From contig JAFLTT010000011.1 of assembly GCA_022509165.1 (NCBI GenBank), forward strand, positions 1-64,000: a stretch of DNA of 64,000 nucleotides, written 5' to 3'. The notes beneath the pieces were generated by a model. The model worked only from the letters and a program-made list of their open reading frames with translations, did no database searches and was not told the origin of the DNA. The position numbers and the translations under genes are program-made. The DNA comes from Muribaculaceae bacterium. GTDB taxonomy: Bacteria > Bacteroidota > Bacteroidia > Bacteroidales > Muribaculaceae. This document shows, piece by piece, positions 8,635 through 38,951 of the stretch; position 1 is the stretch's first letter, and each line of letters begins with the position of its first letter.

Positions 8635-10365
8635 TCAGGCTTCTGCTTTTTCGGCAGGAGTCTCATCATAGAGATAATCTTTGATCTGCTCCGGACGGAA
8701 ATTGCCAATGAATGAAGCATGCTGAGCTACCTCTGCCTGGCCATATTTCACATAAACCTCCAAAGACTTGCGGAAAGATTCGTTTCTCTGAACATCTTCA
8801 AGAAGGAGGTAACCCATGATGATATGTCCGGCCATCTCAACGAGACGACGAGCCATAAAGTCGTGGAAAGAAGGATCGTCAACCCCCATCACAGCCTGAA
8901 CGGCATCCGCATATTGCTGAGTCATGAAAACAAGGGTATTTTTGATTGCCTCATCTTCCGGATGTACGGGTTCGGCCTCGAATTCTTTTATTTTATTCAG
9001 ATATGTGCCGGTGGTGACGTGGCGGATCGCTGCCACTACCTGAAGTTGGGTAGTACCTTCATATATGGAAGTGATACGTGCATCGCGGTATAGGCGTTCA
9101 CAAGTATAATCTTTCATAAAACCGGAACCACCATGAATCTGAATTGCATCGTAAGTATTCTGATTACAGAATTCAGAAGTCATTCCCTTTGCCAGCGGGG
9201 TGAAGGCGTCTGCCAGTTTGCTGTAATATTTCTGTTCTTTCTTCTCATCGGCAGTGAGAGGTCTTTCTTTAGCGATGTCGTCGTAGATTTTATACATATC
9301 TACAAAACGTGAACAAGCATAAAGAAGAGCTCTGGAGGCATCGAGTTTAGCCTTCATTGTGGAGAGAATCTCAGCCACAGCGGGGAACTCTATGATAGCT
9401 TTGCCAAACTGTTTACGGTCTTTTGCATAAGCAAGTGCCTCGCGGTATGCAGCCTCGCTGATACCTACAGACTGAGCTGCGATACCAAGGCGAGCTCCGT
9501 TCATAAGAGCCATCACATATTTGATAAGACCCAGACGGTTGCTTCCTACGAGTTCTGCCGGTGCATCTTTATACACAAGTTCACAAGTGGGAGAACCTTT
9601 GATACCCATCTTATTTTCAATACGGCGAACATTAACACCTCCGTTGCGTTTGTCATATATAAACATTGAGAGGCCACGACCATCTCTTGAGCCCTCTTCC
9701 GAACGAGCGAGCACCAGGTGAATATCGCTGTCACCATTAGTGATGAAACGTTTCACTCCGTTGAGCACGTAAGAACCATCTTCTTTTTTGGTAGCCTTCA
9801 GCATAACTGATTGCAAGTCGGAACCTGCATCGGGTTCAGTCAGGTCCATCGACATGGTTTCGCCTTTACAAACACGTGGAATGTATTTATCCTTTTGCTC
9901 ATCGTTGGCAAATTCATAAATAGTTTCAGCACAATCCTGAAGACCCCAGATGTTTTCGAAAGCGGCGTCGGCACGGCTTACCATATCGGCAGCCATGATA
10001 TATGGAGTGATCGGGAAATTAAGACCACCCAGTCTGCGAGGCATAGACATGCCCATAAGGCCGGCTTTGCGGCATGCGTCAAGATTGCGTTCTGTACCGG
10101 CTGCATATACTACACGGCCGTTTTTCACGCTTGGGCCTTCATGGTCTACTTCCTCAGCGTTTTCAGCGATCACATTAGCGCAGATATCACCCACGATCTC
10201 GAGTACTTTGTCATAGCTGTCCATAGCATCAGCAAAGTTCATCGGGGCATAGTCGTATTTATCGGCGTCTGCGAAATTCCTCTCTTTGAGTTCCACTATC
10301 TTTTCCATCATCGGATGATTGAGATAGTGTTTGAGAGTTTCGTTATCGTTATAAAAATTAGCCAT
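8635..10365 (-). CDS. Acyl-CoA dehydrogenase
   Basis: MDLTEPDAGSDLQSVMLKATK, FITNGD, YAKDRKQFGKAI, IHGGSGFMKDYTCERLYRDARITSIYEGTTQLQ motifs. Confidence 0.93.
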   Translation of the reverse strand: MANFYNDNETLKHYLNHPMMEKIVELKERNFADADKYDYAPMNFADAMDSYDKVLEIVGDICANVIAENAEEVDHEGPSVKNGRVVYAAGTERNLDACRKAGLMGMSMPRRLGGLNFPITPYIMAADMVSRADAAFENIWGLQDCAETIYEFANDEQKDKYIPRVCKGETMSMDLTEPDAGSDLQSVMLKATKKEDGSYVLNGVKRFITNGDSDIHLVLARSEEGSRDGRGLSMFIYDKRNGGVNVRRIENKMGIKGSPTCELVYKDAPAELVGSNRLGLIKYVMALMNGARLGIAAQSVGISEAAYREALAYAKDRKQFGKAIIEFPAVAEILSTMKAKLDASRALLYACSRFVDMYKIYDDIAKERPLTADEKKEQKYYSKLADAFTPLAKGMTSEFCNQNTYDAIQIHGGSGFMKDYTCERLYRDARITSIYEGTTQLQVVAAIRHVTTGTYLNKIKEFEAEPVHPEDEAIKNTLVFMTQQYADAVQAVMGVDDPSFHDFMARRLVEMAGHIIMGYLLLEDVQRNESFRKSLEVYVKYGQAEVAQHASFIGNFRPEQIKDYLYDETPAEKAEA

Positions 10366-11393
10366 TATTTAGAATTCTTTTTATAATACTTGATTAATTG
10401 AGGCACAACATCTTCAAATTTGCCGGTGATAACATAATCGGCTATTTTGTTGATAGGTGCATCAGGGTCGGAATTGATAGAGATAATCAAAGCTGAATCC
10501 TGCATTCCGGCGATATGCTGAATCTGACCGGAAATACCGCAAGCAATATACAACTTCGGGCGTACAGTGACACCTGTCTGACCGATCTGACGGTCGTGGT
10601 CTACCCAACCGGCATCCACTGCTGCACGGCTTGCTCCTACTTCAGCTCCCAAAGTATCGGCAAGTTTCTGAAGTATATCAAAATTTTCTTTGCTTCCTAC
10701 ACCGTATCCACCTGCTACGATGATTGGGCTGCCTTTGAGATTAACTTTAGATTTCTCAACGTGGCGATCAATGATGTCAATCACAAAATCTTCCGGTTTT
10801 GTGTATTTGTTTACATCCATTTGCTTCACATCGCCCTTATAATTGGAATCTTTTTCCTCTTTCTTCATTACGCCTTCGCGCACTGTTGCCATCTGCGGAC
10901 GGCAATCAGGGTTTACAATGGTAGCCACGATATTACCACCGAAAGCGGGACGGATCTGATATAAAAGGTCTTTATATTCTTTGCCGGTCTTTACATCAGT
11001 GTAGTCACCAATTTCCAGGGAAGTACAATCAGCAGTGAGACCGCTATGCAAAGCGGAAGAGACACGTGGACCGAGGTCACGGCCAATAGAAGTAGCCCCC
11101 ATGAAAGCGATTCTGGGTTCTATTTCCTTAAAGAGGTTTATAAGAATTGAGGAATGAGGGAGTGAAGTATAAGGATAAAGCCTTGCGTCTTCAAATTTAT
11201 ATACAGTGTCTACTCCATATGGGAGGATTTGCTTTTCGATATCCTTAAGGTTATCGCCAGCCACTACTGCTTCGAGTTTTATTCCAAGTTTGTCGGCGAG
11301 CTGACGTCCTTTAGTGAGAAGTTCGAGGCTCACGTCCGACACTTTACCGTGTTCGTATTCGCAGTATACAATAAGGTTGTTCTTGTCTGCCAT
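10365..11393 (-). CDS. etfA: Electron transfer flavoprotein alpha subunit
   Basis: C-terminal FAD motif PKLYIACGISGQIQHIAGMQDSALIISINSDPDAPINKIADYVITG. Confidence 0.95.
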   Translation of the reverse strand: MADKNNLIVYCEYEHGKVSDVSLELLTKGRQLADKLGIKLEAVVAGDNLKDIEKQILPYGVDTVYKFEDARLYPYTSLPHSSILINLFKEIEPRIAFMGATSIGRDLGPRVSSALHSGLTADCTSLEIGDYTDVKTGKEYKDLLYQIRPAFGGNIVATIVNPDCRPQMATVREGVMKKEEKDSNYKGDVKQMDVNKYTKPEDFVIDIIDRHVEKSKVNLKGSPIIVAGGYGVGSKENFDILQKLADTLGAEVGASRAAVDAGWVDHDRQIGQTGVTVRPKLYIACGISGQIQHIAGMQDSALIISINSDPDAPINKIADYVITGKFEDVVPQLIKYYKKNSK

Positions 11394-11425
11394 TTCTTAA
11401 AAGTGTTTTAGTTGACGGTTAAAAA

Positions 11426-12295
11426 TCAACCGATAGTGTGGTTTGCGATAAGGTCAATGATAAGGTTTTCGAGTTCAGCCTCTGTATTTTCAATTTTACG
11501 GGCTTCTTTAGCGGTGAATACTACATTCTGAATAGATTTCACCTTAGTAGGAGAACCGGGAAGGCCGCATTGTGCCAGGTCGGCATTTACATCTGCAGCG
11601 TTCCATTCACCGATTTTGAGGTATGGGCGTTTCTCAATGAGAGCTTTTTTCTCTTCATCATTAGCCACCTCTGATGGGACTGCAGCATATTTATATTTCT
11701 GAACTGCTTTAGCATTGCGCGGGCGGCAATCAGCAGCCGAACCGTTTACAGTCACTACAAGAGGAAGTTTACCTTTTACGGTTTCGACACCGGCTTCAAT
11801 TCTTCTCTTTACAGTTATTTCACCATTCTTTACATCGAGGATATCTTCAGCATAAGTGATCTGAGGAATACCAAGTTTTTCAGCTACCTGAGGACCAACC
11901 TGGGCAGTGTCACCGTCGATAGCCTGACGGCCACCTAAAATCAGGTCAAAATCTCCCAGTTTCTTGATAGCAGCGCTGAGAGCGTAAGAAGTAGCCAAAG
12001 TATCAGAACCGGCAAAAGCTCTGTCAGAGAGGACCACGCCTCCATCTGCACCACGGAATAAACCTTCACGAATAATTTCGGCAGCGCGTGCCGGGCCCAT
12101 GGTGAGCACGGTTACTTTTGTACCGGGAATAAGGTCTTTAAGCTTAAGCGCTTGTTCAAGAGCATTGAGGTCCTCAGGATTAAAGATGGCAGGAAGAGCA
12201 GCACGGTTTACCGTACCATCAGCCTTCATAGCATCCTTACCCACATTACGTGTATCGGGGACCTGCTTTGCGAGTACAATGATATTTAAACTCAT
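11426..12295 (-). CDS. etfB: Electron transfer flavoprotein beta subunit
   Basis: LAKQVPDT...NPEDLNALEQALKLKD...LILGGRQAIDGDTAQVGPQVAEKLGIPQITY. Confidence 0.95.
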   Translation of the reverse strand: MSLNIIVLAKQVPDTRNVGKDAMKADGTVNRAALPAIFNPEDLNALEQALKLKDLIPGTKVTVLTMGPARAAEIIREGLFRGADGGVVLSDRAFAGSDTLATSYALSAAIKKLGDFDLILGGRQAIDGDTAQVGPQVAEKLGIPQITYAEDILDVKNGEITVKRRIEAGVETVKGKLPLVVTVNGSAADCRPRNAKAVQKYKYAAVPSEVANDEEKKALIEKRPYLKIGEWNAADVNADLAQCGLPGSPTKVKSIQNVVFTAKEARKIENTEAELENLIIDLIANHTIG

Positions 12296-23693: not shown

Positions 23694-23724
23694 AGGCCGT
23701 GTGGTGTTTCACACGGCTTTTTTA
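23694..23724 (+). terminator. Rho-independent terminator of leu-ilv operon
   Basis: GCCGTGTG...CACACGGC stem (23696-23717) followed by TTTTTTATTT. Confidence 0.88.
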
Positions 23725-23734: not shown

Positions 23735-23806
23735 CCATACCATCAAAGACTCCTTGTATTGGCAATCCGAACCTCTTATTTGATTACAAAAGCCTTGAAG
23801 AACTTC

Positions 23807-25525
23807 ATGTGGGGTTCCATCATGGCTGCAGTGTCGTCGCAGATAGCTACAACAACAGATGCAATTGTTGTAAGTAACCTTATAGGTCCTGATGCCATAT
23901 CGGCAATCAATATCGTAATGCCGATTCTTACATTCTTCAGCTGCCTGATGATATTGTTTGGAATCGGGTCAAGTATACTTGCAGCCAAAGCAATAGGACG
24001 CCGGGATTCACAGGCAGCAAATGAAATCTTTTCCAACGCCATCATAGCGGCTTCGGTGACAGGAGTATTTTTCGCAGTGATAGTGTATATTTGGAGCAGT
24101 CCTATTGTATACTGGCTTACCCAGGGTAATTTAGCCATCTACGGCTATGCATTGAGTTACCTGAGGGTGATGTGTCTTGTGGTGCCATTTATGATTATTG
24201 CAGGGGTAATAGAAAATTTCGTTAAGACCGACGGCAACCCCCGAATTGTAATGAAGGCTGTGTTGGCAGGAAGTTTCCTGAATCTGATCCTTGATATTGT
24301 ATTTGTTAAATTCTTCAATATGGGAATAGCAGGTTCGGCATGGGCCACAGGACTCAATTATCTATTAGCTCTCCTCATCTGTCTGTTGCACTTCCGTAAT
24401 CCCTATTCGTCATTGAAATGGGCCATAGATAGAAAGAGAATCAGAATGTTTGTAGGCCAAAGCGTATCACAGGGATTGCCGATGAGCCTGAATACATTAT
24501 TGCTGGGTGGCAGTATTTATTTTATCAACTTCATAATACTGAGAGTTTCAGGCAATGATGGCATTTATTGCTGGTCAGTATGTCTCCAGCTTTTTATGAT
24601 AATGCAGATGGTGCTTTCCGGCATAGGATCGAGTATTTATGCCATCGGGGGAATTCTGATGGGTGAACAGGATATGCTCGGTTTCTCCATTTTAAATCGT
24701 AAATGCCAGTTGTATACCTCTATATCTATAGGGTTTATAACCGTTATAATAATACTGTTTCCGGAATTTTTTGGCACTTTATTCGGAAGCGGAGGAGAGG
24801 GAGCCATAGATGGTCTGGGCATGTCCTTACGCCTTTTCTCTCTTCTTCTCTTGCCCTATTCGATAGTGGCTTTACTCCGGGCTACATATCAGATATTGGG
24901 ACATTCTGGATTAAGTCTCTTCCTAAGCATATTTCAACTTGCCATCATGGTTGGCTCGGTTTGGCTCTTCTCTCTTATCAATGCCGAAATGATGTGGTGG
25001 GGATTCCCTATTTCAGCATATGCTCTTCTTTTAGGTCTTATTTGCTATACTTATTTTCAGCATCTGCGACATCCCGACATTAGTTTCATGACCTTAATTC
25101 CCCATCATCTGGAGGCTGACTCGCTCAATATTTCCGTGAAGATGGATTTTAACGATGTAGAAAAAGCACAGAGCAGTATCCAAAAATTCCTGGAACAAGA
25201 AAAGGTAGATAAATTTACCGAATACAGGGTAAGACTTGCCTGCGAGGAACTGATGAATAATATTGTGGCCCATGCTGTGGCAAAACATCCGGAAAAACAT
25301 TATTTTGATGTGCATATCCGTGTTTCAGCTTCTGATGTAAACATTCTGCTTAAAGACGACGGACGACCATTCAATCCGATTCTTTCTGAGGAGGATTCAA
25401 AAATTTCAGAAAATGATTCTGCCGCAAAATTGGGATTGAAAATAGTGAATAATATTGATGGAGCCATCAATTATAAATACATGTACGACCAGAATATGGT
25501 GCAACTAAAATTTGCTAAAAATTAA
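23807..25525 (+). CDS. MATE-family efflux transporter with C-terminal RsbW/HATPase_c-like ATP-binding domain
   Basis: N-terminal multi-TM MATE (FMWGSIMAAVSSQIATTTDAIVVSNLIGPDAISAINIVMPIL; AKAIGRRDSQAANEIFSNAI). C-terminus after ~25120 carries an N-box CEELMNNIVAHA, G1-box DDGRPFNP and LGLKIVNN. The ORF start 23699 lies inside the terminator; the true start may be a TTG at ~23759 or ATG 23807. Confidence 0.87.
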   Translation: MWGSIMAAVSSQIATTTDAIVVSNLIGPDAISAINIVMPILTFFSCLMILFGIGSSILAAKAIGRRDSQAANEIFSNAIIAASVTGVFFAVIVYIWSSPIVYWLTQGNLAIYGYALSYLRVMCLVVPFMIIAGVIENFVKTDGNPRIVMKAVLAGSFLNLILDIVFVKFFNMGIAGSAWATGLNYLLALLICLLHFRNPYSSLKWAIDRKRIRMFVGQSVSQGLPMSLNTLLLGGSIYFINFIILRVSGNDGIYCWSVCLQLFMIMQMVLSGIGSSIYAIGGILMGEQDMLGFSILNRKCQLYTSISIGFITVIIILFPEFFGTLFGSGGEGAIDGLGMSLRLFSLLLLPYSIVALLRATYQILGHSGLSLFLSIFQLAIMVGSVWLFSLINAEMMWWGFPISAYALLLGLICYTYFQHLRHPDISFMTLIPHHLEADSLNISVKMDFNDVEKAQSSIQKFLEQEKVDKFTEYRVRLACEELMNNIVAHAVAKHPEKHYFDVHIRVSASDVNILLKDDGRPFNPILSEEDSKISENDSAAKLGLKIVNNIDGAINYKYMYDQNMVQLKFAKN

Positions 25526-25537
25526 AATTCATAAATT

Positions 25538-28500
25538 ATGACCAACGACTATCTACAGCCATTTTGGGATGCTTTTGAAAACTATGCCGGGAAAACAGCA
25601 GTGGTAGACAAAGGCGGCCGTTTTACGTCATATTCAGAATTGGGTGATCTTACAAGAAGGATTGCTGCAGGAATTAAGAAACTGAATCTACCGCCCAATT
25701 CCTTTATTCCGATTTATCTTCCTACCTCCATGGAATATATGGCATCACAACTGGCTGTATGGATGACCGGCCATGCCGTAGTGCCAATGGGTCATTCTTA
25801 TCCTAAAGAGAGGATAGAATTTATCAAGGCGCACAGCGAGGCCCCGGTTGTGATTGATGAAGAGGTGTTTGAACAACTGGCAGCTACTTTAGAAAGATAT
25901 GAAGGGACAGAACCACTTGATATGAAGTCAAATGCATTGATGATTTATACAAGTGGGTCTACAGGAGAACCGAAAGGCATAATCCATACCTTCGAAAGTC
26001 TGGACTTTGCATATCGTTACAATATGAAGGAACCGGTAGACCCTTCTCAAAAATGGGGAGCCACAGCACCACCATATTTTATTGCCGGAGTCACCATCAA
26101 TACAAGGGTGCTAAAAGGGGGAGGTGAATTGCATCTTTATGATGATGAAATAAGATTTGATGTGAATAAAATGGCCGACTATATCGCCGACCATGGAATC
26201 ACTCATACGTTTATCAGTCCGTCGGCTCTTACAGCTTTCCATAATCATTCTGATTCACTCAAAGTGGTATATGCCGGCAGTGAAAAACTTTCCGGTCAAC
26301 AAAGCCGGGAAGGATACACGCTTTACAATGTATTCGGGATGAGTGAAATGGTGGGTGGCATACTGTCATTCCGAGTAGACAAGCCTTATGATACAACTCC
26401 TATCGGTAAGCCTGACAAAGAAGCTCCGGCAGAATTCAAGATAGTAGATGCAGATGGAAATACATTACCCGACGGAGAGGAAGGGGAATTATGGATTAAA
26501 GGTCCTTTCACCAAAGGATATCATAAAGATCCGGAACGCACAGCAAAAGTGCTGGAGGGTGGTTGGCTTCATACGGGAGATATAATGAAATTTTTGCCGG
26601 ATGGAAGCCTTCTGTATGTAAACCGAAAAGACTGGATGGTGAAAATCAATGGCCAGAGAGTGGAGCCGGGTGAGGTAGAGGCAGCAATGAAAAAAGTAGC
26701 CGGAGTGACCGGTGCCATTGTGAAAGGCTTTGATTCCGATAAAGGCAGTCAGTTTATCTGCGGTTATTATACCTCTTCACCGGAAACCAATGTGACTCCT
26801 GACACAATCCGTGAAGAGTTACTCAAGAGCCTTCCTTCCTATATGATACCGCTGCATATAGTAAGAATGGACAAATTCCCTGTACTTCCAAACGGAAAAG
26901 TAAACCGCAAGATATTGCAACCACCCACGGTAGAAGACCTTCAGCAGGAATATATCGAACCACGCAATGAAACGGAGAAGGAATTGTGTGAAGCTTATGA
27001 AAAGGTTTTTGATATCGGTAAAGTAGGAATAGACGACGATTTCTTCATGTTGGGAGGCGACAGCATCAAGGTGATGAAATTACAACAGATTTGTAAGAAT
27101 CTTAATCTCACCTCCAAACTGATCTATTCGGAGAAAACGCCGAGAAGAATAGCTGAATTATGTGAAAAAGAGGGAGATAAAATAGTGGACACTTTACCAG
27201 ATTATCCTGTTCCGCTTACTCAGACTCAGTTGGGTATTTTTGCAGAAAGTATGGCAAGAAGAGGAGAAGCGGTATATAACAATCCTTTGCTTCTTAAACT
27301 TGATGATTCCATAAATCTGACCCATTTAGCCGAATCTATTCAGAAAGTGATAGGGGCCCATCAATTTGTGATGCTTAAAATTAGGGAGGATGAGGAAGGC
27401 AATCCTCAGATGATAGCCGATAAATCTCCTTATCATCAGACTGTAGAGAAAATGACAGATAGTGATTTCCAAAAGGCTAAGGGAGAGTTGATCCGGCCAT
27501 TTGACCTTTTGGAAGATCCCCTTTTCCGTATACGCATTATCGAGACAGAGAGTGGGAAATATCTCTTCCTGGATTTCCATCATATTATTTATGACGGCAC
27601 TTCTATGGCCATCTTCGCTAACGACTTGGAAAGTGCCTATAAAGGAGAAGACTTAAAAGAGGAAAGCTGGAGCGGATTCAATGTAGCGGAAGAAGAGAGA
27701 AGAATTAGAGAAACTCCGATCTATACACGGGCAAAAGAATGGTATGAGGAGAACTTCGGTTCGCTGGAAGTAGACAGCATGCCACTACCGGATGTGCATG
27801 AAGATAAGACTGTTTTTGCATCTCTTGACTTCAATCTGGGAGTGAATATGAAGGAAGTAGATAAGGTATGCGAAAGATTTGGAATAACAGCCAATATCTT
27901 CACTTTAGGAGCTTTTGGACGCCTTATCGGAGCATTCACAAATCTCGACGAGGCTTTGTTTGCTACAATATACAATGGACGTGAAAGTGTGAAGGTGTCA
28001 GATACCATTGATATGATGGTCAAGACTTTGCCTGTATATTGCAAATGGGATACAGACACTGCTTTGCAGGAATATTTCCGGGGGATTAAAGAAAAGATGC
28101 TCGGTGCAATGAACCATGATATCTATTCCTTTGCAGAAATATCTGCTTCTACGGGTATCAATAGTGACCTTTTGTTTGCTTATCAGGGAGACTATCTCAC
28201 ACTTGATTCTTTATGTGGCTTACCTGTGAAGAAAATTGAACTGGACAGGAACGCTACTGGTTCTCCTCTCGACTTCCAGGTATTCATCAAGGATGGAGAG
28301 TTGGTGCTGCATGCTGAGTATATGAGCAACCGATATTCAGAAAATTTCATAAAGGAGATTTCAAGAAGTTACGGCAAGGTTCTACAAAGTATGATGAACG
28401 CCGAAATAATGTCGGAGGTAGAATTTATAGATGAAACTCAGCGCAACCTTCTTGACCGGTTTAACAAAACTGAGGTAGTATATGATAAATCTCAGACAGT

Positions 28501-31500
28501 GGTGAGTCTTTTTGAGAAAGCGGTTCAAGAACATTCCGAAAACACGGCGGTAATTTATGAAGACAAGAGGTATTCCTATAAGGATACGGACTTACTTACC
28601 GGAGAGATTGCCCATAGAATTTTACAAAAGGGTTTAGGAGGCGAAGTGATTGCTATACTGATTCCAAGGAGTGAATGGATGGTAATGGCCTCGTTGGGCT
28701 CCCTGCGCGCAGGATGTCCGTATCAACCTCTTGACAATACATATCCTTCTGAGAGGTTAAATTTTATGGTGAAGGATTCGGGTGCAAAACTGCTTCTCAC
28801 AACTCCCGAGTTAAGAAATTTAGTAGATGAATATGAAGGAGAGGTGTTGATGGTTACCGATATTCGGATGCCTCAAGAACACCCAGACTTAACAAGAGTA
28901 GACATCAAGCCGGATAATCTGTTTACCTTACTTTATACAAGTGGTTCTACCGGAGTGCCGAAGGGAGTGAAACTAACCCACTCAAATTTAGTATGCTTTA
29001 TCCATTGGTATAATAGATACTATGCTCTTGAAGCCGGCAACTGTGTAGGAGCCTATGCCTCTTATGGTTTTGATGCCAATATGATGGATATGTATCCCGC
29101 TTTGACCCAGGGAGCAAGTGTATGCATTATTCCCGAGGATTTAAGATTGGATATGGAACGACTGAATGAGTACTTGATAAAAAACAAAGTGACTCATCAG
29201 TTTATGACGACACAGGTGGGAAGACAGTTTGCCTCTGATATCGAACATACTACATTAAAATATCTGAGTATGGGAGGGGAAAAACTTATTCCTTTCCCGA
29301 TTCCGGAGAATTATAACACTTATAATGCATATGGTCCTACAGAATGTACCATCTTTTCTACTATTTACCCGCTCCATAAAGATGAAAAAAATATCTTCAT
29401 TGGAAGAGTGATAGACAATATGAAGGGATATGTGGTAGGAAAAAGTGGGAAGCGGTTGCCGGTAGGAGCAGTGGGTGAATTGTGGCTCGCCGGTCCACAG
29501 ATTGCGAGAGGCTATCTGAACCGACCGGATAAGACTGCAGAAGTTTTCATTACCAATCCGTTTGATGAGGGAGAATACACCACAATGTATAAAACGGGGG
29601 ATGTGGTAAGATACACTGAAGATGGCAACATTGATTTTATAGGCAGAAGCGATGGGCAGGTGAAGATTAGAGGATTCCGGATCGAATTAAGCGAAGTGGA
29701 AGGAGTGATTCGTGAATTCCCGGGAGTGAAAGATGCTACAGTAGCAGCCTTCGATCACCCATCGGGAGGAAAATATATCGTTGCCTATGTTGTAGGTAAT
29801 GAAAAGCTCGAACCTTCTGAGATAGCTGATTTTGTGCGTGAACGCAAACCGCCTTATATGGTACCGGGCGTTATCATGCAGATAGAAAGGATACCCCTCA
29901 ATCAGAATCATAAAGTGAACAGGAAGGCTTTGCCGAAGCCGGAATTCAAGGGAGAAGAATCAGAAGACAACTCCAACAGGCCATTGAATAATCTTGAAAA
30001 AGAGATTATTGCAATAGTTGGAAAAGTATTGGGAATAGAGGAGATTGGGGTAGGAGTATCCTTGTCAAATTTGGGCCTTACCTCCATCTTAAGCATCAAA
30101 CTTGCATCTCAGTTATACAAACGATTCAATGTAGAAATCCCTTCAAAGGAACTCCTGGGAGGTGGCACCGTGGAAAGCATTGAGAATCTTTTGTTGAATC
30201 ACTGGATGTATCCGGAAAAGGATAACCTGGAAAAAGAGAAATCGGGAGATATGGATGTGATGCAGGGAGATGTAATTTCGATGCCTCTATCCTTCCCTCA
30301 GACGGGTGTGTATTTTGAATGTATGAAACGTCCGGCCGATATCACCTATAATATCCCCGCAATTTATCACTTTGGACAGAATGTAGATGCAACCACACTG
30401 GCAGAAGCGGTAAGAGATGTTGTGAAGGCTCATCCGGGATTACAGACCAGATTTGCAAATACAGAGGAAGGAGTGATGCAACATTTCGAGGAATCAGAAG
30501 AACCGGTTGTAGAGATATTAAAAATGCCTTCTGAAGAACTTGAGGTTTACAAGAAAGAATTTGTGAAGCCCTTCCATCTTGTAAATGGACCGTTATATCG
30601 GATTGCAGTGGTGGAAACAGAAAAAGGAGTCGATCTTCTTACAGATTTTCATCATCTTGTATTTGACGGAAGTTCGCTGGATATTTTCTTGCGACAATTG
30701 CATGAAGCCCTCCATGGAAATTCTCCTACAAAAGAAGAGTATGATTATCTTAAGTTTGTGAGGGATGAAAAGAATTTTGAGAGTTCGGAGAAATTTGAAG
30801 AGAATAAGAAATTCTTCGATCATCTCCTGTCTGAATTTGAAAATGCCAGCGAAGTATCCGGCGATCTGAAAGGAAAGGAAGAGAATGGAAAACTTGCCAG
30901 CATAGGATCTCCGATTGACCTAAAGAAAGTTGAAGAATTTGCACGCCAACAGAATGTGACCCCGGCGGCGGTAATGCTTGCAGCTACATTTTATACTATC
31001 TCAAGATATATAAATGATTCTCATGTATATCTTTCTACCATCAGCAGCGGTAGAAGCGATGTGAAGACAGGTGAATCCTTCGGTATGTTTGTCAATACGC
31101 TACCATTAGGTATAAAGATAGGGGATGAATCTGTGGAAGAATTTGTGAAAAGGAGTGCAAATGTATTTCAAGGTGTTATTGAACATGAGAAATATCCATT
31201 TGCAAGGATTTCAGCCGACTTCGGATTCCAGCCACAGATTGTGTATGAATATCAGCTTGGGGTGGTGGGAGACAATAGTTTCCCTGAGATGTTGGGCATG
31301 GAAAGTCTTGAGCTAAATACTGCCAAGTTTAAACTCTCCATTCATATAGAGGATTATGAGGGCAAACCCTCAGCAGTGGTTTTCTACAACGATGCGCTAT
31401 ATTCCCGAGGCATGATGGAAGGTCTTGCAAAAAGTATATCCATAGTTACGGAGAAGATAGTAGATAATCCAAAAGAGAAAATAAAGAGGGTCAGTCTGAT

Positions 31501-34471
31501 AGATGAAGAAAGGGAAAGGAAGTTGGAGACCTTCCGCACTGTTGCAACTTTCGACACTCCTTACAAGTATTATCAGGAAGCAGTAGAGGAATATGCCTCC
31601 AAGACTCCTCAAAGAAAAGCACTTGTGGCATGTGATGCAGAATATACTTATGCAGAATTTGATGCTGTCACTAATGTAATAGCCAATAATCTGATAAAAA
31701 GAGGTGTGACTCCGCGTTCAAGGGTTGCCCTGTTGCTACCCCGTACTTCAAGAGTAATTTTGGGAATGTTTGGAGTGATGAAGGCCGGATGTGCCTACAT
31801 CCCTTGCGACCCGGAATATCCTACTGACAGGATTCAGCATATTCTGGATGACAGTGAGGCTGCCTTTATCCTCACAACGTCCGACCGACTTCAAGATTTC
31901 CCGAATGCAATTGATGTAGAGACATTACTGGATGGAGACAACTCACGTCCGACTCTTGAAATCACACCGCAAGACCTGGCTTACTTAATATATACATCAG
32001 GATCCACAGGGCGACCGAAAGGTGTGATGCTAAGGCATGAAAGTATAGCCAATTATCTTTATCCTCATAGGGCCAACACTCATATCAATGCTATTGCAGA
32101 GACCGGACATACGATGCTCTCCATCACTACCATATCTTTTGATATGAGCCTGAAAGAGATCGGAGCTGCTCTCTGCAATGGTCTCACTCTGGTTTTTGCC
32201 AGTGAGGAACAAACCACAAATCCAATCACACTGGCAAAATTGTTTAAAGAAACCGGAGCTGACGTCTTCAATACCACCCCGTCAAGGATGCTCCAGTTTA
32301 TGGAGTTGCCCGCTTTTGCTGAAGCAATTGGGCAATGCAAGGTAATTATGTGCGGAGGAGAGAAATATGCCGACGGTTTACTCGACAAACTTAGGTCAGC
32401 CGCTCCTGAAGCACGTATCTTTAATACTTACGGACCCACTGAAATCACTGTTTCATGCAATTGTAAAGACCTCACTCACACAGATGAAGTAAATGTAGGC
32501 AAGCCGTTGCTTAATGTTACAGAATTTGTGGTGGATAAAGATAGCAATGAACTTCCGGCAGGAATCGTGGGTGAACTCTATATTGGTGGAGAAGGTGTAG
32601 CCACCGGTTATAACAATCTTCCTGAAATGACAGCCGAGAGATTTATAGATTATAAAGGGATGAGAATCTATAAATCAGGCGACTATGCCAGATGGACTGA
32701 AAACGGTGACGTGCAGATTCTGGGCAGAACCGACAATCAGATAAAACTACGGGGTCTGAGAATCGAGCTTGGTGAAGTAGAGGCAGCCATAGCGGCTATA
32801 GAGGGCATTAAGAATGTAGTAGTGAAAATCGGTAAAATCAAGGGTGAGGAACATCTGGCAGCTTATTTCACGGCAGACCATAAGATCGATATTCCTCAAT
32901 TGAAGAAAGATTTGGGCAAGACCCTTACAAAATATATGGTGCCTACTGCCTATCTTCAGATGGAGAAGATGCCGCTTACACCGAACGGTAAGACAGATGT
33001 GAAGTCTTTACCCGAACCGGAGGTGGCCCTCTCAGGTGATTATGAAGCTCCAAGAAATGAAACGGAACAAAAAATTGCAGATATCTTCGCTAAGATACTT
33101 AAACTCGACAAGGTAGGGGCAAACGATAATTTCTATGAGATGGGAGGCACTTCTCTTGTTACAACCCGTGTCATCATAGAAACCGATAAGTTGGGATATA
33201 ATGTAGCTTATGGCGATGTATTCTCGCATCCTACTCCAAGAAAACTTGCCAATTTCATACTTGGTGTGGAAAATGATGAAACAGGAGCCGATGAAGTGGC
33301 GGATTATGATTATTCAGATATCAATGAAGTACTTAGTAAAAACACCCTTCCCCATTTCCAATTAGGAGAAAGTCAGGAATTGGGTAAAGTGCTTCTCACC
33401 GGAGCCACAGGCTATCTTGGTATTCATATATTGAGGGAACTCATTGATTCAGATGCCCAGGAAATATGGTGCCTGGTAAGAGGTAAGGATGAAGAAAATG
33501 CTGCCTCAAGGCTTAAGACACTTTTGTTTTATTATTTTGAGAATACATTCGAAAGTCTTTTTGGAAACCGTCTGCATATTATACTTGGGGATGTGACTTC
33601 TCCAATACCATCAGATATTGTTACCGACACTCTTATAAACTGCGCGGCAGTGGTGAAACACTTTGCTGAAGGCACAGAGATAGAGGATGTGAATGTGGGA
33701 GGCGTAGAGCATTGTCTGAATTATTGTAAGGCTACCGGTGCCAAAATGATCCAGATATCCACCGCAAGTACAAGGGGATTGAGTGTAAATGGCATTCCCG
33801 CTCCCGGAACAATATTTAATGAGGAAAAACTATATATCGGACAGTTCCTTGGCAATAAATATATACATTCAAAATTTATAGCAGAACGAATGGTTTTGGA
33901 AGCAGTGGCCAAATCTGATCTCACGGCTAAAATTATGAGAGTCGGCAATCTGGCTCCAAGAAGTTCTGATGGAGAATTCCAGGCTAATTTCCAGACAAAT
34001 TCATTTATGGGTCGACTCAAGGTATATAACATGCTTGGGTGTTGTCCGTATGAATCACGCGACGGACAGGTGGAATTCTCTCCTATAGATGAAGTGGCCA
34101 GGGCCATTGTGCTTCTTTCAACCACTCCTAAAGAATGTGTTGTTTTCCATCCTTATAACAACCATGGGATATTGCTTGGTGATGTACTGACTGAACTGAA
34201 ACATGTGGGAGAAGGAGTAAGATTTGTAGAGCTGGGAGAATTCTCCGGAGCTCTTGAAGAAGCTAAGGAAGATCCCAATAAAGCACGTCAATTGTCAAGT
34301 CTTCTGGCATACCAGAATATGGCAAAAGGACAAAAATCATCAGATGTTGCTCGACAGAATTCCTATACAATGCAAGTTCTATATCGCTTAGGGTTCTCTT
34401 GGTCTACCACATCCTGGGATTATATAGACAGATTCATGAAGGCTATACAAGGACTTGGATTCTTTGATTAA
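25538..34471 (+). CDS. Trimodular non-ribosomal peptide synthetase, A-T-C-A-T-C-A-T-R with terminal thioester reductase
   Basis: Three A3 motifs (YTSGSTGEPKG 25946; YTSGSTGVPKG ~28933; YTSGSTGRPKG ~31989). Carrier motifs LGGDSIKVMKL, LGLTSILSIKL, MGGTSLVTTRV. Condensation HHIIYDG (~27579) and HHLVFDG (~30650). C-terminal LLTGATGYLGIHILRELI (~33395) and YIHSK reductase motifs. Confidence 0.95.
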   Translation: MTNDYLQPFWDAFENYAGKTAVVDKGGRFTSYSELGDLTRRIAAGIKKLNLPPNSFIPIYLPTSMEYMASQLAVWMTGHAVVPMGHSYPKERIEFIKAHSEAPVVIDEEVFEQLAATLERYEGTEPLDMKSNALMIYTSGSTGEPKGIIHTFESLDFAYRYNMKEPVDPSQKWGATAPPYFIAGVTINTRVLKGGGELHLYDDEIRFDVNKMADYIADHGITHTFISPSALTAFHNHSDSLKVVYAGSEKLSGQQSREGYTLYNVFGMSEMVGGILSFRVDKPYDTTPIGKPDKEAPAEFKIVDADGNTLPDGEEGELWIKGPFTKGYHKDPERTAKVLEGGWLHTGDIMKFLPDGSLLYVNRKDWMVKINGQRVEPGEVEAAMKKVAGVTGAIVKGFDSDKGSQFICGYYTSSPETNVTPDTIREELLKSLPSYMIPLHIVRMDKFPVLPNGKVNRKILQPPTVEDLQQEYIEPRNETEKELCEAYEKVFDIGKVGIDDDFFMLGGDSIKVMKLQQICKNLNLTSKLIYSEKTPRRIAELCEKEGDKIVDTLPDYPVPLTQTQLGIFAESMARRGEAVYNNPLLLKLDDSINLTHLAESIQKVIGAHQFVMLKIREDEEGNPQMIADKSPYHQTVEKMTDSDFQKAKGELIRPFDLLEDPLFRIRIIETESGKYLFLDFHHIIYDGTSMAIFANDLESAYKGEDLKEESWSGFNVAEEERRIRETPIYTRAKEWYEENFGSLEVDSMPLPDVHEDKTVFASLDFNLGVNMKEVDKVCERFGITANIFTLGAFGRLIGAFTNLDEALFATIYNGRESVKVSDTIDMMVKTLPVYCKWDTDTALQEYFRGIKEKMLGAMNHDIYSFAEISASTGINSDLLFAYQGDYLTLDSLCGLPVKKIELDRNATGSPLDFQVFIKDGELVLHAEYMSNRYSENFIKEISRSYGKVLQSMMNAEIMSEVEFIDETQRNLLDRFNKTEVVYDKSQTVVSLFEKAVQEHSENTAVIYEDKRYSYKDTDLLTGEIAHRILQKGLGGEVIAILIPRSEWMVMASLGSLRAGCPYQPLDNTYPSERLNFMVKDSGAKLLLTTPELRNLVDEYEGEVLMVTDIRMPQEHPDLTRVDIKPDNLFTLLYTSGSTGVPKGVKLTHSNLVCFIHWYNRYYALEAGNCVGAYASYGFDANMMDMYPALTQGASVCIIPEDLRLDMERLNEYLIKNKVTHQFMTTQVGRQFASDIEHTTLKYLSMGGEKLIPFPIPENYNTYNAYGPTECTIFSTIYPLHKDEKNIFIGRVIDNMKGYVVGKSGKRLPVGAVGELWLAGPQIARGYLNRPDKTAEVFITNPFDEGEYTTMYKTGDVVRYTEDGNIDFIGRSDGQVKIRGFRIELSEVEGVIREFPGVKDATVAAFDHPSGGKYIVAYVVGNEKLEPSEIADFVRERKPPYMVPGVIMQIERIPLNQNHKVNRKALPKPEFKGEESEDNSNRPLNNLEKEIIAIVGKVLGIEEIGVGVSLSNLGLTSILSIKLASQLYKRFNVEIPSKELLGGGTVESIENLLLNHWMYPEKDNLEKEKSGDMDVMQGDVISMPLSFPQTGVYFECMKRPADITYNIPAIYHFGQNVDATTLAEAVRDVVKAHPGLQTRFANTEEGVMQHFEESEEPVVEILKMPSEELEVYKKEFVKPFHLVNGPLYRIAVVETEKGVDLLTDFHHLVFDGSSLDIFLRQLHEALHGNSPTKEEYDYLKFVRDEKNFESSEKFEENKKFFDHLLSEFENASEVSGDLKGKEENGKLASIGSPIDLKKVEEFARQQNVTPAAVMLAATFYTISRYINDSHVYLSTISSGRSDVKTGESFGMFVNTLPLGIKIGDESVEEFVKRSANVFQGVIEHEKYPFARISADFGFQPQIVYEYQLGVVGDNSFPEMLGMESLELNTAKFKLSIHIEDYEGKPSAVVFYNDALYSRGMMEGLAKSISIVTEKIVDNPKEKIKRVSLIDEERERKLETFRTVATFDTPYKYYQEAVEEYASKTPQRKALVACDAEYTYAEFDAVTNVIANNLIKRGVTPRSRVALLLPRTSRVILGMFGVMKAGCAYIPCDPEYPTDRIQHILDDSEAAFILTTSDRLQDFPNAIDVETLLDGDNSRPTLEITPQDLAYLIYTSGSTGRPKGVMLRHESIANYLYPHRANTHINAIAETGHTMLSITTISFDMSLKEIGAALCNGLTLVFASEEQTTNPITLAKLFKETGADVFNTTPSRMLQFMELPAFAEAIGQCKVIMCGGEKYADGLLDKLRSAAPEARIFNTYGPTEITVSCNCKDLTHTDEVNVGKPLLNVTEFVVDKDSNELPAGIVGELYIGGEGVATGYNNLPEMTAERFIDYKGMRIYKSGDYARWTENGDVQILGRTDNQIKLRGLRIELGEVEAAIAAIEGIKNVVVKIGKIKGEEHLAAYFTADHKIDIPQLKKDLGKTLTKYMVPTAYLQMEKMPLTPNGKTDVKSLPEPEVALSGDYEAPRNETEQKIADIFAKILKLDKVGANDNFYEMGGTSLVTTRVIIETDKLGYNVAYGDVFSHPTPRKLANFILGVENDETGADEVADYDYSDINEVLSKNTLPHFQLGESQELGKVLLTGATGYLGIHILRELIDSDAQEIWCLVRGKDEENAASRLKTLLFYYFENTFESLFGNRLHIILGDVTSPIPSDIVTDTLINCAAVVKHFAEGTEIEDVNVGGVEHCLNYCKATGAKMIQISTASTRGLSVNGIPAPGTIFNEEKLYIGQFLGNKYIHSKFIAERMVLEAVAKSDLTAKIMRVGNLAPRSSDGEFQANFQTNSFMGRLKVYNMLGCCPYESRDGQVEFSPIDEVARAIVLLSTTPKECVVFHPYNNHGILLGDVLTELKHVGEGVRFVELGEFSGALEEAKEDPNKARQLSSLLAYQNMAKGQKSSDVARQNSYTMQVLYRLGFSWSTTSWDYIDRFMKAIQGLGFFD

Positions 34472-34488
34472 AAAACATTGTAATTGAT

Positions 34489-35835
34489 ATGAAGACGATA
34501 TCATATACGGAGGCGGTGGATCTCGTGAAGAGGGGGGAAACCTTGACACATAGTGAAAGACTCAAGATTCAAAATGAAAGATTGAAGGCACTTGTAAACT
34601 ATGTGCGTGAGAAATCACCTTATTTCAAAGAACTTTATGCTGAGGTAGGGGAAGAAATCTCCTTAGAACAATTGCCTCCAACTGAGAAAAAGACTCTTCT
34701 TGAAAATTATGACAATTGGGTTACAGATCGAGATTTAAACAAGGAGAAAGTATTGGAATATCTTGGAAGAGATATACATGACAATTCGTTACTTCTCGGG
34801 AAGTATACGGCTTTGAAAACGAGCGGTTCCACAGGTAACCCCCTGGTGATGGTGCGTGATGACTATCATAACAAGATACATGGGGCATTGGTAAATGAGC
34901 GCCTAATGAGAGATCTGGATCCTCAGATACTGAACCCTTCAAAATATAAGATAGCCACCGTGATTCATACTTCACCCGGAGCCTCCAGTTATAACGGATA
35001 CCTCAGGGCGTTAGCCGCTTTCCCTGATTACACTCACAATATGATGGCTTTATCTGTGCTCGAAGATATTGAAACTATTGTGGAGAAACTGAATGAATTC
35101 AAGCCTGATGTACTTACCGGATATGCATCTTCCTTGATTCTGCTTGCCAGAGAGAAGAAGGAGGGAAGGCTCAAAATTGATTTGAAACTGGTTTGCAATT
35201 CGGCAGAACTGCTTACTGAAGAAGGCTATCATCAACTTTCAGAAGCTTTCGGATGCAGAGTGATTAATAATTATTGCATGACTGAAGGTGGGGAAATAGC
35301 AATGGCCAATGGTAGTCATGCCATGTTGCTTAATGAAGACTGGGTAATTGTGGAGCCGGTGGATGCAGATTTAAACCCCATCTCTGAGTTTTCAGATGGA
35401 ATCCTGATTACAGACCTGAGTAATTATGTGCAGCCCATAATCCGATACCATGTGGGTGACAGAGTAAGAATCTTGCCATCCACAGATGAAACGGCTTTGC
35501 CGGAACTCAAAATAGCAGGCCGCACTTTCTCCTCTTTTACCTTGGGAGGCAAGACATATACCACTGTGGCTATAGTGACAAAAGCAGAGGTCTGGCCGGG
35601 CCTCCTGAACTATCAGGTGGTGCAAAGGGATGATCACACCCTTGAATTAAGAGGTGTGGTAAATGCTTCTGAAGATGCAGATTCAGTATTGAAAGGGCTT
35701 GCTGAGGCCTTGGAAGGTTATTTCCATGAAAATGGGTGTGAATCTGCTAAAATCACTTATTCCACCGAACCTATGGTTCACAACGAAAAAGGAGGAAAGA
35801 TACCTTTATATGTAGATAAAAGGAATGGGGATTAA
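34489..35835 (+). CDS. PaaK/CapK-like adenylate-forming enzyme (phenylacetate-CoA ligase family)
   Basis: LVNYVREKSPYFKELYAEVGEEISLEQLPPTEKKTLLENYDNWVT; ALKTSGSTGNPLVMVRD; NNYCMTEGGEIA; IIRYHVGDRVRI. Confidence 0.85.
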   Translation: MKTISYTEAVDLVKRGETLTHSERLKIQNERLKALVNYVREKSPYFKELYAEVGEEISLEQLPPTEKKTLLENYDNWVTDRDLNKEKVLEYLGRDIHDNSLLLGKYTALKTSGSTGNPLVMVRDDYHNKIHGALVNERLMRDLDPQILNPSKYKIATVIHTSPGASSYNGYLRALAAFPDYTHNMMALSVLEDIETIVEKLNEFKPDVLTGYASSLILLAREKKEGRLKIDLKLVCNSAELLTEEGYHQLSEAFGCRVINNYCMTEGGEIAMANGSHAMLLNEDWVIVEPVDADLNPISEFSDGILITDLSNYVQPIIRYHVGDRVRILPSTDETALPELKIAGRTFSSFTLGGKTYTTVAIVTKAEVWPGLLNYQVVQRDDHTLELRGVVNASEDADSVLKGLAEALEGYFHENGCESAKITYSTEPMVHNEKGGKIPLYVDKRNGD

Positions 35836-38056
35836 GACTTCCGGGCAAATAAAAAGGACACTCAACGCCAATGGCATTCTTATGCTTGTATTGGCCGCTC
35901 TGATATTGGAATCAATTTCTTTGATTCAATATCATTATGCCCGGGAGGAAATAACTGTTGATCTACATCTCAGAGCACAAAGCGAACTTCTTGCAAAAAG
36001 TCTGGCCATCCAATATATAATGAGCCAGGTGGAATCTGCCGTAGACAACCATGTGTGGGATGCCGAACGACTTGTGGAATGGCCTGATTCTTCCTTCGGT
36101 GTGGTGAGAAGACTTGTGGAACAAAATCCTGAAATAACCGGAAGCGCACTTTCATTTGCACCAAACTATTACCCCCAGAAGGGATATTGGTTTGAAAGTT
36201 ATGCGGTGAGAAGAGATTCCACTCAAATTGAGACTATGCAGTTAGGCACAGCCGATCATGATTACACAAAGATGGATTTCTTTCTTGTGCCTATGCAGAC
36301 AGATTCAGCAAGGTGGACAGATCCTTACCTCGATAAAGATGGAGCCAGGATGATGCTCACCACCTATGCAAGACCTATCCATGATAAGACGGGTAAAGCA
36401 GTTGGAGTGCTTGATGCCGACCTTTCGCTTGATTGGTTGAAGAATGTGCTGAGCGCTAATTTTGTTTACCCCTCAAGTTATCATATCCTTATCTCACGTT
36501 CGGGACAATTAATGAGTTATCCCGACCAAGACCTGGTGATGCGCAGCACATTTGAAGATATTGCCAAGGAAATGAAGGACACCACTTATCTTTCTGTAAA
36601 CCGGCTTATGATGGAAGGGAAAAGCGGTAATGTGGTAGTGAAGGACAATACCGGAGAAAAATACCATATATTCTACTCTCCGGTGGGAGGAGAGACGGGA
36701 TGGAGCCTTGCTGTGGTAAGTTCTGAAAAAGAGATTTTCGGTCACTATAACCGCATGCGCCTCACTCTGCTAATTCTTAGTTTTATTGCCTTGTTAGTCC
36801 TGGTCTTTATAATCTGGAGATCTATCAGAAATATCGGACGCCTTGAAAAGGTCACAATAGAGAGGGAAAGAATAAAAAGTGAACTAAAGGTAGCCGGCGA
36901 GATTCAGAAAGGGATGCTCCCCGGAAATCTTTCATTAGATGATTCCAAAGAAAGGATTGAATTAGCCGGAGTTCTGGAACCGGCCAAGGAAGTAGGTGGC
37001 GATATATACGACTATTACATAAAGGATGATTATCTATATTTCTGCATTGGAGATGTAAGCGGGAAAGGGGTTCCGGCTTCACTTTTCATGACTGTGACAC
37101 GAAGTTTGTTCAGAACCTTGTCTTCGCATACCCGGAACGCCTCGAAGGTGCTTCAGCATATGAACGATACTTTGGCCGACCTTAATGAGAGTAATATGTT
37201 TGTAACCTTCTTTTTAGGAATACTGGATCTCAAAACAGGAAAACTTATTTATTCCAATGCCGGTCATGACGCTCCTTATATAATAGAAGATGGCAAGATA
37301 ACACAATTGGTAGTAACGCCTAATCTCCCTTTGGGTGTATTCCGCAATTTTGAATTTGCAGAACAGTCTATATATTTACACCGGGACTCAATTCTTTTCC
37401 TTTATACTGATGGCTTGACGGAGGCCATGAATAAGGATAAGCAAGAATTTGGCGACCAAAGGTTGATGGAAAGCTTGAAGGATATAATCCGGCTGAATCC
37501 CGGAATAACTGCCAAGTCTCTCCTTAATGACATCACACAAAAAGTAAAAGACTTTGTGGGTGATGCAGAACAAAGTGACGACCTTACTTTGCTGGCTATT
37601 ATTTATAAAAACCCAAAGACAGCAGAAAGTAAAAAAGTCCTGAAATTGAAAAATGAGATTTCAGAAATAGAAAACTTAAATGCCGAGGTGGAAGAATTCT
37701 GCCTGGTAAATAATTTCTCCTCAGAATTCGCCACTGAACTGAAACTTGCAGTGGAAGAGGCGGTGGTGAATGTGATAAATTATGCCTATGGAAATGAATC
37801 CGGGAATATAGAGGTAGAGTTATCGAAAAATGGACCGGAAATAGTTGTAAGGATTAAAGACTCCGGCAAGGCTTTTGATCCGACAAAAGTAGAAAGTCCG
37901 GATTTAGAAGCCAGTGTAGAAGAACGCCCTATCGGCGGACTGGGACTTTTTCTGGTGACTAACTTAACAGATTCAGTATCATATTCAAGAGAGGGTGACT
38001 TTAATATACTTACCCTTATCAAGAATGGTAAGAATAAGCCTGATACCCAACAATAA
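35825..38056 (+). CDS. Membrane dCache sensor - SpoIIE/PP2C phosphatase - HATPase_c fusion
   Basis: Two TM segments flank a Cache-like domain (RWTDPYLDKDGARMMLTTYARPIHDKTGKAVGVLDADLSLDWL). PP2C motifs EVGGDIYDYY, GDVSGKGVPASLFM, LYTDGLTEA, DDLTLLAI. C-terminal HATPase EEAVVNVINYAY, DSGKAFDP, GGLGLFLV. Confidence 0.9.
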   Translation: MGIKTSGQIKRTLNANGILMLVLAALILESISLIQYHYAREEITVDLHLRAQSELLAKSLAIQYIMSQVESAVDNHVWDAERLVEWPDSSFGVVRRLVEQNPEITGSALSFAPNYYPQKGYWFESYAVRRDSTQIETMQLGTADHDYTKMDFFLVPMQTDSARWTDPYLDKDGARMMLTTYARPIHDKTGKAVGVLDADLSLDWLKNVLSANFVYPSSYHILISRSGQLMSYPDQDLVMRSTFEDIAKEMKDTTYLSVNRLMMEGKSGNVVVKDNTGEKYHIFYSPVGGETGWSLAVVSSEKEIFGHYNRMRLTLLILSFIALLVLVFIIWRSIRNIGRLEKVTIERERIKSELKVAGEIQKGMLPGNLSLDDSKERIELAGVLEPAKEVGGDIYDYYIKDDYLYFCIGDVSGKGVPASLFMTVTRSLFRTLSSHTRNASKVLQHMNDTLADLNESNMFVTFFLGILDLKTGKLIYSNAGHDAPYIIEDGKITQLVVTPNLPLGVFRNFEFAEQSIYLHRDSILFLYTDGLTEAMNKDKQEFGDQRLMESLKDIIRLNPGITAKSLLNDITQKVKDFVGDAEQSDDLTLLAIIYKNPKTAESKKVLKLKNEISEIENLNAEVEEFCLVNNFSSEFATELKLAVEEAVVNVINYAYGNESGNIEVELSKNGPEIVVRIKDSGKAFDPTKVESPDLEASVEERPIGGLGLFLVTNLTDSVSYSREGDFNILTLIKNGKNKPDTQQ

Positions 38057-38082: not shown

Positions 38083-38385
38083 ATGAAAACAACAATTGAA
38101 ACAACCTCCGACACAGTTAAGGTGAAGCTGGAGGGTGACCTTGATACAGCAGCGGCTCAGGAAACTGAAAAGGCACTGCAACCTCTGTATGCACTTAAAG
38201 ACAAAGATATTGTGATTGATTGCGAAGACTTGAATTATATCTCTTCAAGTGGGCTGAGGCTCTTGCTGAGTCTTTTGAAAAGTTGCACCCCGAATGGCAA
38301 TCGCCTTACATTGTTGCATCTCAATGACAATATCAAGAAGGTATTCACCATGACGGGCTTCTCCACACTTTTCAATATCCAATGA
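38083..38385 (+). CDS. STAS-domain anti-sigma factor antagonist-like protein (RsbV/SpoIIAA family)
   Basis: 100 aa; VIDCEDLNYISSSGLRLLLSLLKSC matches the STAS phospho-Ser region. Confidence 0.9.
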   Translation: MKTTIETTSDTVKVKLEGDLDTAAAQETEKALQPLYALKDKDIVIDCEDLNYISSSGLRLLLSLLKSCTPNGNRLTLLHLNDNIKKVFTMTGFSTLFNIQ

Positions 38386-38951
38386 TCTATATTCACGACG
38401 ATCTCGGAAGCATCAGCAAAGAAGAATTTGAAGAGATGATGGCCGAGATGGCCGAGTCACGGCGACAAAAGTGCCTGGCTTTAAGACAAGAAACCGACAG
38501 GCTTCAATGTGCCATTGCCCATAGATTATTGCTGAAGGCTTTGAGAGAAGAATTCGGCATCCGAGATATTCCGGTATGGAGTTTTAACCCAAACGGGAAA
38601 CCTTATTTGAGAGATTACCCACAAATCCATTTCAGTCTGAGCCATTGTAAAGAAGCAGTGGCATGTGCGGTGGCTGACCATCCTGTGGGAATAGACGTGG
38701 AGTCACTTCAAGCCTATGATTCTTCTTTGGCCAGGTATGTTTGTTCTGACGGGGAATATGAGCAACTAAAGAGTAAAGAAGATGCGGCCACTGCCTTTTG
38801 TGTTTTGTGGACCAAAAAAGAGAGTCTGCTGAAACTAAGAGGGGAATCATTCCCTTCTCGGGAACAATTGTCCGATCTGCTTGAAAATTGTAATAACAAA
38901 TTTCATACCCTCATTCATAGCCGATATGTATTGAGTCTTTGCGAGGAGTAA
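38382..38951 (+). CDS. 4'-phosphopantetheinyl transferase (Sfp-type)
   Basis: FNPNGKPYLRDYPQIHFSLSHCKEAVACAVADHPVGIDVE and FCVLWTKKESLLKLRG; ATGA overlap with the STAS gene. Confidence 0.92.
   Translation: MIYIHDDLGSISKEEFEEMMAEMAESRRQKCLALRQETDRLQCAIAHRLLLKALREEFGIRDIPVWSFNPNGKPYLRDYPQIHFSLSHCKEAVACAVADHPVGIDVESLQAYDSSLARYVCSDGEYEQLKSKEDAATAFCVLWTKKESLLKLRGESFPSREQLSDLLENCNNKFHTLIHSRYVLSLCEE

Follow-up and report, generated by a model that had tools for sequence, protein, structure and literature searches.

The 64,000-nucleotide stretch of Muribaculaceae DNA analyzed here (the window) carries a compact gene cluster on its forward strand. The first gene (23759..25525) encodes a MATE exporter that carries a C-terminal HATPase_c_2/GHKL domain. 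It is followed by a gene for a three-module nonribosomal peptide synthetase (NRPS; A-C-A-C-A with carrier domains) that ends in an NAD-dependent reductase (25538..34471) and has a predicted product of the acyl-dipeptide aldehyde type. The remaining genes encode a divergent adenylate-forming (AMP-binding) enzyme (34489..35835) that is kept in many of the clusters; a protein joining a PDC/dCache membrane sensor to a SpoIIE phosphatase and an HATPase_c_2 domain with an intact GGLG lid (35825..38056); a stand-alone STAS protein of the anti-sigma-antagonist type (38083..38385) with a putative phosphorylation site at Ser55 in NYISSSGLR; and a 4'-phosphopantetheinyl transferase (PPTase) of the AusB/Sfp type (38382..38951) that scores below the family cut-off and whose gene shares 4 bases with the STAS gene. 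All are tightly packed: neighboring genes overlap slightly or are separated by no more than 26 bases. The GC content of the cluster is unremarkable. On one side lies ilvC, separated from the cluster by a terminator-like hairpin (23694..23719, forward strand), and on the other a ribosomal-protein operon, both named from their open reading frames. The adenylate-forming enzyme resembles PaaK/F390 synthetase, although every model match falls below its cut-off, and a PADLOC search for a link to defense found none.

The STAS gene is the fourth gene after the fusion, as reported in the first-pass annotation, which mentioned neither the SpoIIE-HATPase gene nor the NRPS gene; their presence changes the interpretation. 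Encoded together are a SpoIIE phosphatase, a STAS protein with a conserved serine, and a predicted GHKL kinase, the components of a partner-switch module. The serine is present in 21 of 21 cluster STAS proteins at what we take to be the position of SpoIIAA Ser58.

A single open frame ending at 25525 carries both MatE (PF01554; 87.6 bits against a Pfam cut-off of 24.9) and HATPase_c_2 (46.5 bits against 27.4), while the TIGR00797 match of the MATE part lies under that model's own cut-off (121.5 versus 147.4). The gene start had been placed at the ATG at 23807, which is probably wrong because the conserved residues RTSYLITKAL, with R4 and L8 unchanged across 34 homologues, are encoded upstream of that point. 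Since the GTG at 23699 falls within the terminator-like hairpin, the sequence indicates that translation most likely begins at the TTG at 23759, which gives a protein of 588 aa. The N-box (CEELMNNIVAHA), the G1 motif (DDGRPFNP), and LGLKIVNN are all located in the C-terminal part as originally quoted. A frameshift or gene-joining artefact, which had been named as grounds for abandoning the idea of a fusion, is ruled out by 47 nonredundant homologous fusions elsewhere. The MATE-GHKL fusion is therefore genuine and occupies one intact frame.

The AlphaFold model of the fusion alone yields a confident MATE plus GHKL domain (pLDDT 83.4, pTM 0.82). Foldseek matches the whole model to MATE structures (PfMATE, 4mlb, E 4.7e-15), and both the 12-TM MATE fold and the MatE score above cut-off mark the protein as a MATE exporter. 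The TM1 Asp34 of the pump is conserved at 90% or more in the homologue alignment. Likewise, with its profile score above cut-off and its GHKL fold, the C-terminal part belongs to the RsbW/SpoIIAB-type GHKL domains (HATPase_c_2). When this region (25079..25525, including the linker) was modelled in isolation, its best PDB matches were SpoIIAB (1til, E 1.4e-7) and RsbW (6m37, 1.1e-6), both from structures of STAS complexes, and the structure of Rv1364c (3ke6) was also among the fold matches. A single-sequence search of the PDB with the domain found nothing, whereas its family profile reached RsbW (6m36, 6e-10) and SpoIIAB (1e-7) by sequence.

With a three-sequence profile, a search across 85,462 species, each represented by a single genome, revealed about 45 fusion loci. 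Most are in Bacteroidales from animal guts (Prevotella, Muribaculaceae, and others), with further carriers in Lachnospiraceae/Dorea, Acetobacterium, and Selenomonas. The distribution is patchy because only two other genomes among 60 relatives carry a full-length fusion. More full-length fusions occur in roughly a dozen genomes among 196 sampled Clostridia. Removal of near-identical copies left 47 nonredundant fusions from Bacteroidales and Clostridia. A switch gene (SpoIIE, STAS, or kinase-like HATPase) lies within 15 kb of 24 of these 47, whose flanks are often short, and a second, canonical HATPase is present in 17 of the 47 loci despite the short flanks. Three more loci (L026, L027, and L028) can be added as switch linked from whole-genome coordinates, with the contig match deduced from distances. 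No switch gene was found within 10 kb of several other fusions (e.g., L029, L037, L050, and L058), which include orphans in Prevotella (L029 and L037).

SpoIIE genes are near 21 of the 47 fusions, compared to about 2.5 expected from SpoIIE density, although shared ancestry means that the p-value overstates independence. The variety of arrangements is a stronger argument for association than this enrichment. The order is SpoIIE-STAS-MATE-NRPS in L064 and L040, SpoIIE-STAS-NRPS-MATE in L047 and L055, NRPS-MATE-STAS-SpoIIE in L150, and MATE-NRPS-ligase-SpoIIE-STAS in the window. Loci that have no NRPS are arranged as MATE-SpoIIE-HATPase (L106, L142, L143, and L148) or STAS-SpoIIE-MATE (L149). A 274-aa protein with no Pfam match (L069:11731-12552) is encoded between a MATE-HATPase gene and two SpoIIE genes in Selenomonas.

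The domain on the pump had been described in the first-pass annotation as an RsbW-type serine kinase/HATPase. Its GHKL fold and its N-box and DxG residues agree with this description, but alignment makes the serine kinase label doubtful. When 58 MATE-fused domains were compared with 18 kinase-like HATPases (SpoIIE-linked or solo) from the same loci, the MATE-fused domains formed one clade (58/58, support 0.99), and the two sets separated without error. The MATE-fused domains retain the N-box Glu (58/58), the N-box Asn (54/58), and the DxG Asp (55/58). The lid GxG glycine, however, is kept in 10 of the 58 (degenerate in 48) and the preceding glycine in only one, whereas all 18 kinase-like HATPases have both lid glycines. 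Profile alignments indicate that SpoIIAB and RsbW also retain the lid GxG. In the window protein, the ATP lid is shortened and lacks the kinase GG, with K-L-G at the GxG position; E, N, and DxG are present. The G1 motif is lost in one homologue (L067). Because the lid glycines are kept in the SpoIIE-linked and solo HATPases and mostly lost in the MATE-fused domains, the former are likely the kinases and the latter the receivers. By this comparison, the neighboring dCache-SpoIIE-HATPase protein is likely both kinase and phosphatase for the STAS protein, and the MATE domain is likely a receiver that perhaps still binds nucleotide.

The composition of the genome is relevant to the output of such a switch. 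In the genome that contains the window (97.3% complete), profile searches detected a single SpoIIE, a single STAS, and two HATPase_c_2 domains, all inside the cluster, and the same closed set recurs in three other genomes (G006, G061, and G070); these counts are bounded by profile sensitivity and by the incomplete coverage of metagenome-assembled genomes. Because these components all lie in the cluster, no other output is visible in the form of a free RsbW-type anti-sigma factor. Indeed, the profile search of the window's genome found no stand-alone candidate for such a factor, and on that search this output was rejected.

It is on balance probable that the cluster encodes a complete partner switch of its own, one that acts on a transporter and not on a sigma factor. 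The dCache-SpoIIE-HATPase sensor would set the phosphorylation state of the STAS protein at Ser55, with its HATPase domain phosphorylating this residue and its SpoIIE domain removing the phosphate. Unphosphorylated STAS protein would then dock on the GHKL domain at the C-terminus of the MATE protein, much as RsbV does on RsbW, and docking would make this pump, the presumed exporter of the cluster's NRPS product, more or less active. The fusion protein is likely to be both the export pump of the cluster and the receiver of the switch. Sequence and models establish the architecture, the GHKL fold, the retained nucleotide-site residues, the lid divergence from the kinases, the conserved STAS serine, and the exclusive genomic co-location; we infer that the STAS protein is phosphorylated and binds the MATE protein, that binding gates the pump and in which sense, and what the cargo is. 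That the GHKL domain is regulatory and does not energize transport, as had been suggested, is well supported by the closed genomic switch set, by repeated co-location in many gene orders, and by the fold match to STAS-binding anti-sigma kinases. The same evidence gives good support to the proposed link to the STAS protein, although the co-location seen in related clusters is not fully independent evidence.

The proposed transporter-output switch resembles several known systems. As in RsbU/RsbV/RsbW and SpoIIE/SpoIIAA/SpoIIAB of Bacillus, there is a SpoIIE phosphatase, a STAS protein with a conserved serine, and GHKL domains of the same fold and Pfam family. The cluster differs in that its MATE pump bears one of the GHKL domains, from which the kinase lid glycines have been lost; a cognate sigma factor is not seen, and transport is the probable output. 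Single proteins that join kinase and phosphatase and act on a STAS domain occur in SypE/SypA of Vibrio fischeri and in Rv1364c (an RsbU-RsbW fusion), and the 35825-38056 protein is predicted to be of this kind. We know of no transporter carrying a second GHKL domain in either of these systems. SypE is a kinase plus phosphatase in one protein that acts on the STAS protein SypA (PMC10120452). STAS domains are also familiar as partners or parts of transporters, as in MlaB-MlaF and the SLC26/SulP proteins; MlaB binds an ABC ATPase and controls it (PMC7367683). In the present cluster, by contrast, the STAS protein is encoded on its own and is probably controlled by phosphorylation, and the GHKL partner is part of the transporter.

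Among natural-product clusters, ClbM-type MATE exporters share the MOP-superfamily pump beside a biosynthetic cluster, the 12-TM fold, and the TM1 Asp, but they end after the transmembrane domain. The aureusimine-type NRPS with its AusB PPTase likewise has a terminal reductase and a dedicated Sfp-type PPTase (here below the AusB cut-off), whereas the cluster in the window has three adenylation domains, an extra AMP ligase, partner-switch genes, and the fused exporter. Partner switches, STAS-regulated transporters, and kinase/phosphatase fusions acting on STAS domains are already known. For a transporter that carries the GHKL partner, no description was found in the PMC literature searched, which covers only a minority of subscription journals.

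Some clusters lack the pump-borne domain. Among reductase-NRPS loci taken from 393 genomes of the order, one (L162) keeps SpoIIE-HATPase, STAS, and NRPS genes beside a plain 442-aa MATE (10250-11575), and another (L166, 3228-12714) has STAS, SpoIIE-HATPase, and NRPS genes and no MATE in the 19 kb covered. These two loci, like the fusions that have no switch gene nearby, count against the transporter-output switch. They suggest that the switch has another job in at least some clusters, unless the HATPase-bearing MATE has been lost from them. Perhaps the switch acts on something else, for instance the NRPS or the PPTase, and the MATE protein keeps its GHKL domain only as a tether, a stability module, or a relic. 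The orphan fusions and the loss of the G1 motif in L067 are in keeping with this possibility. We consider it unlikely, however, because Clostridia fusions pair with SpoIIE and HATPase or STAS genes where there is no NRPS at all (L106, L142, L143, L147-L149, and L154) and because fusions from different phyla share strongly conserved N-box and DxG residues.

Information might also flow in the reverse direction. Transporter-like sensors are known in bacteria, and the MATE protein could be a sensor of flux or cargo whose GHKL domain is an active STAS kinase that follows transport or cargo load, with the STAS protein informing biosynthesis. The conserved N-box and DxG residues make nucleotide binding plausible. 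Nevertheless, the lid glycine comparison, the presence of a second, canonical HATPase in many fusion loci, and the lack of a separate downstream target visible in the genome make this arrangement rather improbable.

Sigma factors were also surveyed. Only one or two region-3 sigma factors per genome were found in five Bacteroidales genomes, and in these five none adjoins an anti-sigma pair, whereas in two Clostridia the same search found region-3 genes adjoining SpoIIAB/SpoIIAA-type genes. In G000, two region-3 genes of about 288-313 aa are adjacent; we infer that the two adjacent region-3 genes of the window's genome probably encode RpoD. No candidate SigB/SigF-type sigma factor was found in this genome, no sigma gene was recognized in the cluster, and a sigma-factor output is rejected. 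Thus, although the nearest folds and profiles are those of the anti-sigma factors SpoIIAB and RsbW, it is very improbable that the GHKL domain is a membrane-bound anti-sigma factor that sequesters a sigma factor until the STAS protein releases it, with the MATE part as anchor or sensor, given that the few Bacteroidales region-3 genes are probably housekeeping RpoD and that the pump residues are conserved.

SpoIIE-STAS-HATPase switches that lack a sigma factor are widespread, often with no assigned output. If the transporter-output reading is correct, the pump-borne GHKL domain, as the only visible partner besides the switch's own kinase, would provide a concrete non-transcriptional output whose mechanism is testable with purified parts. 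Export of NRPS products from gut bacteria would then be gated post-translationally, which would be relevant to the heterologous expression of such clusters.

Domains of this kind are also attached to other transporters. An Acetobacterium NRPS cluster that has a MATE-HATPase also encodes an SDF (dicarboxylate/glutamate) symporter whose N-terminal domain is GHKL-like (L056:894-2537). An amino-acid-type ABC ATPase that carries a degenerate GHKL domain at its C-terminus (L106:13142-14218) is encoded at a locus with MATE-HATPase, SpoIIE, and solo HATPase genes. Profile comparison gave 96% and 95% for the SDF and ABC domains, respectively, versus 8% or less for 150 negatives. Of 391 Clostridia, 5 have related SDF fusions and about 10 have ABC fusions. 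It is tempting to speculate, although here we are somewhat more doubtful than confident, that partner switching is a general means for direct control of membrane transport, with GHKL receivers on MATE pumps, SDF symporters, and amino-acid ABC ATPases through which a STAS phospho-protein would gate transporters in gut and other anaerobes without a change in transcription.

Several MATE pumps encoded beside NRPS/AMP-ligase genes carry a C-terminal extension of ~100 aa (L158:7939-9699, L159:6516-8213, L156:7957-9603, and L157:413-2161). These extensions match no Pfam family and no GHKL profile, and their identification as degenerate GHKL domains is not supported by hhalign, which gave probabilities of no more than about 8% in the three cases compared, equal to negative controls. 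Finally, STAS domains fused to an APH-like phosphotransferase are encoded beside MATE-HATPase genes at three loci (L144:7821-9059, L147:11705-13333, and L149:10437-12038), and two of the three fusions also include an HATPase.
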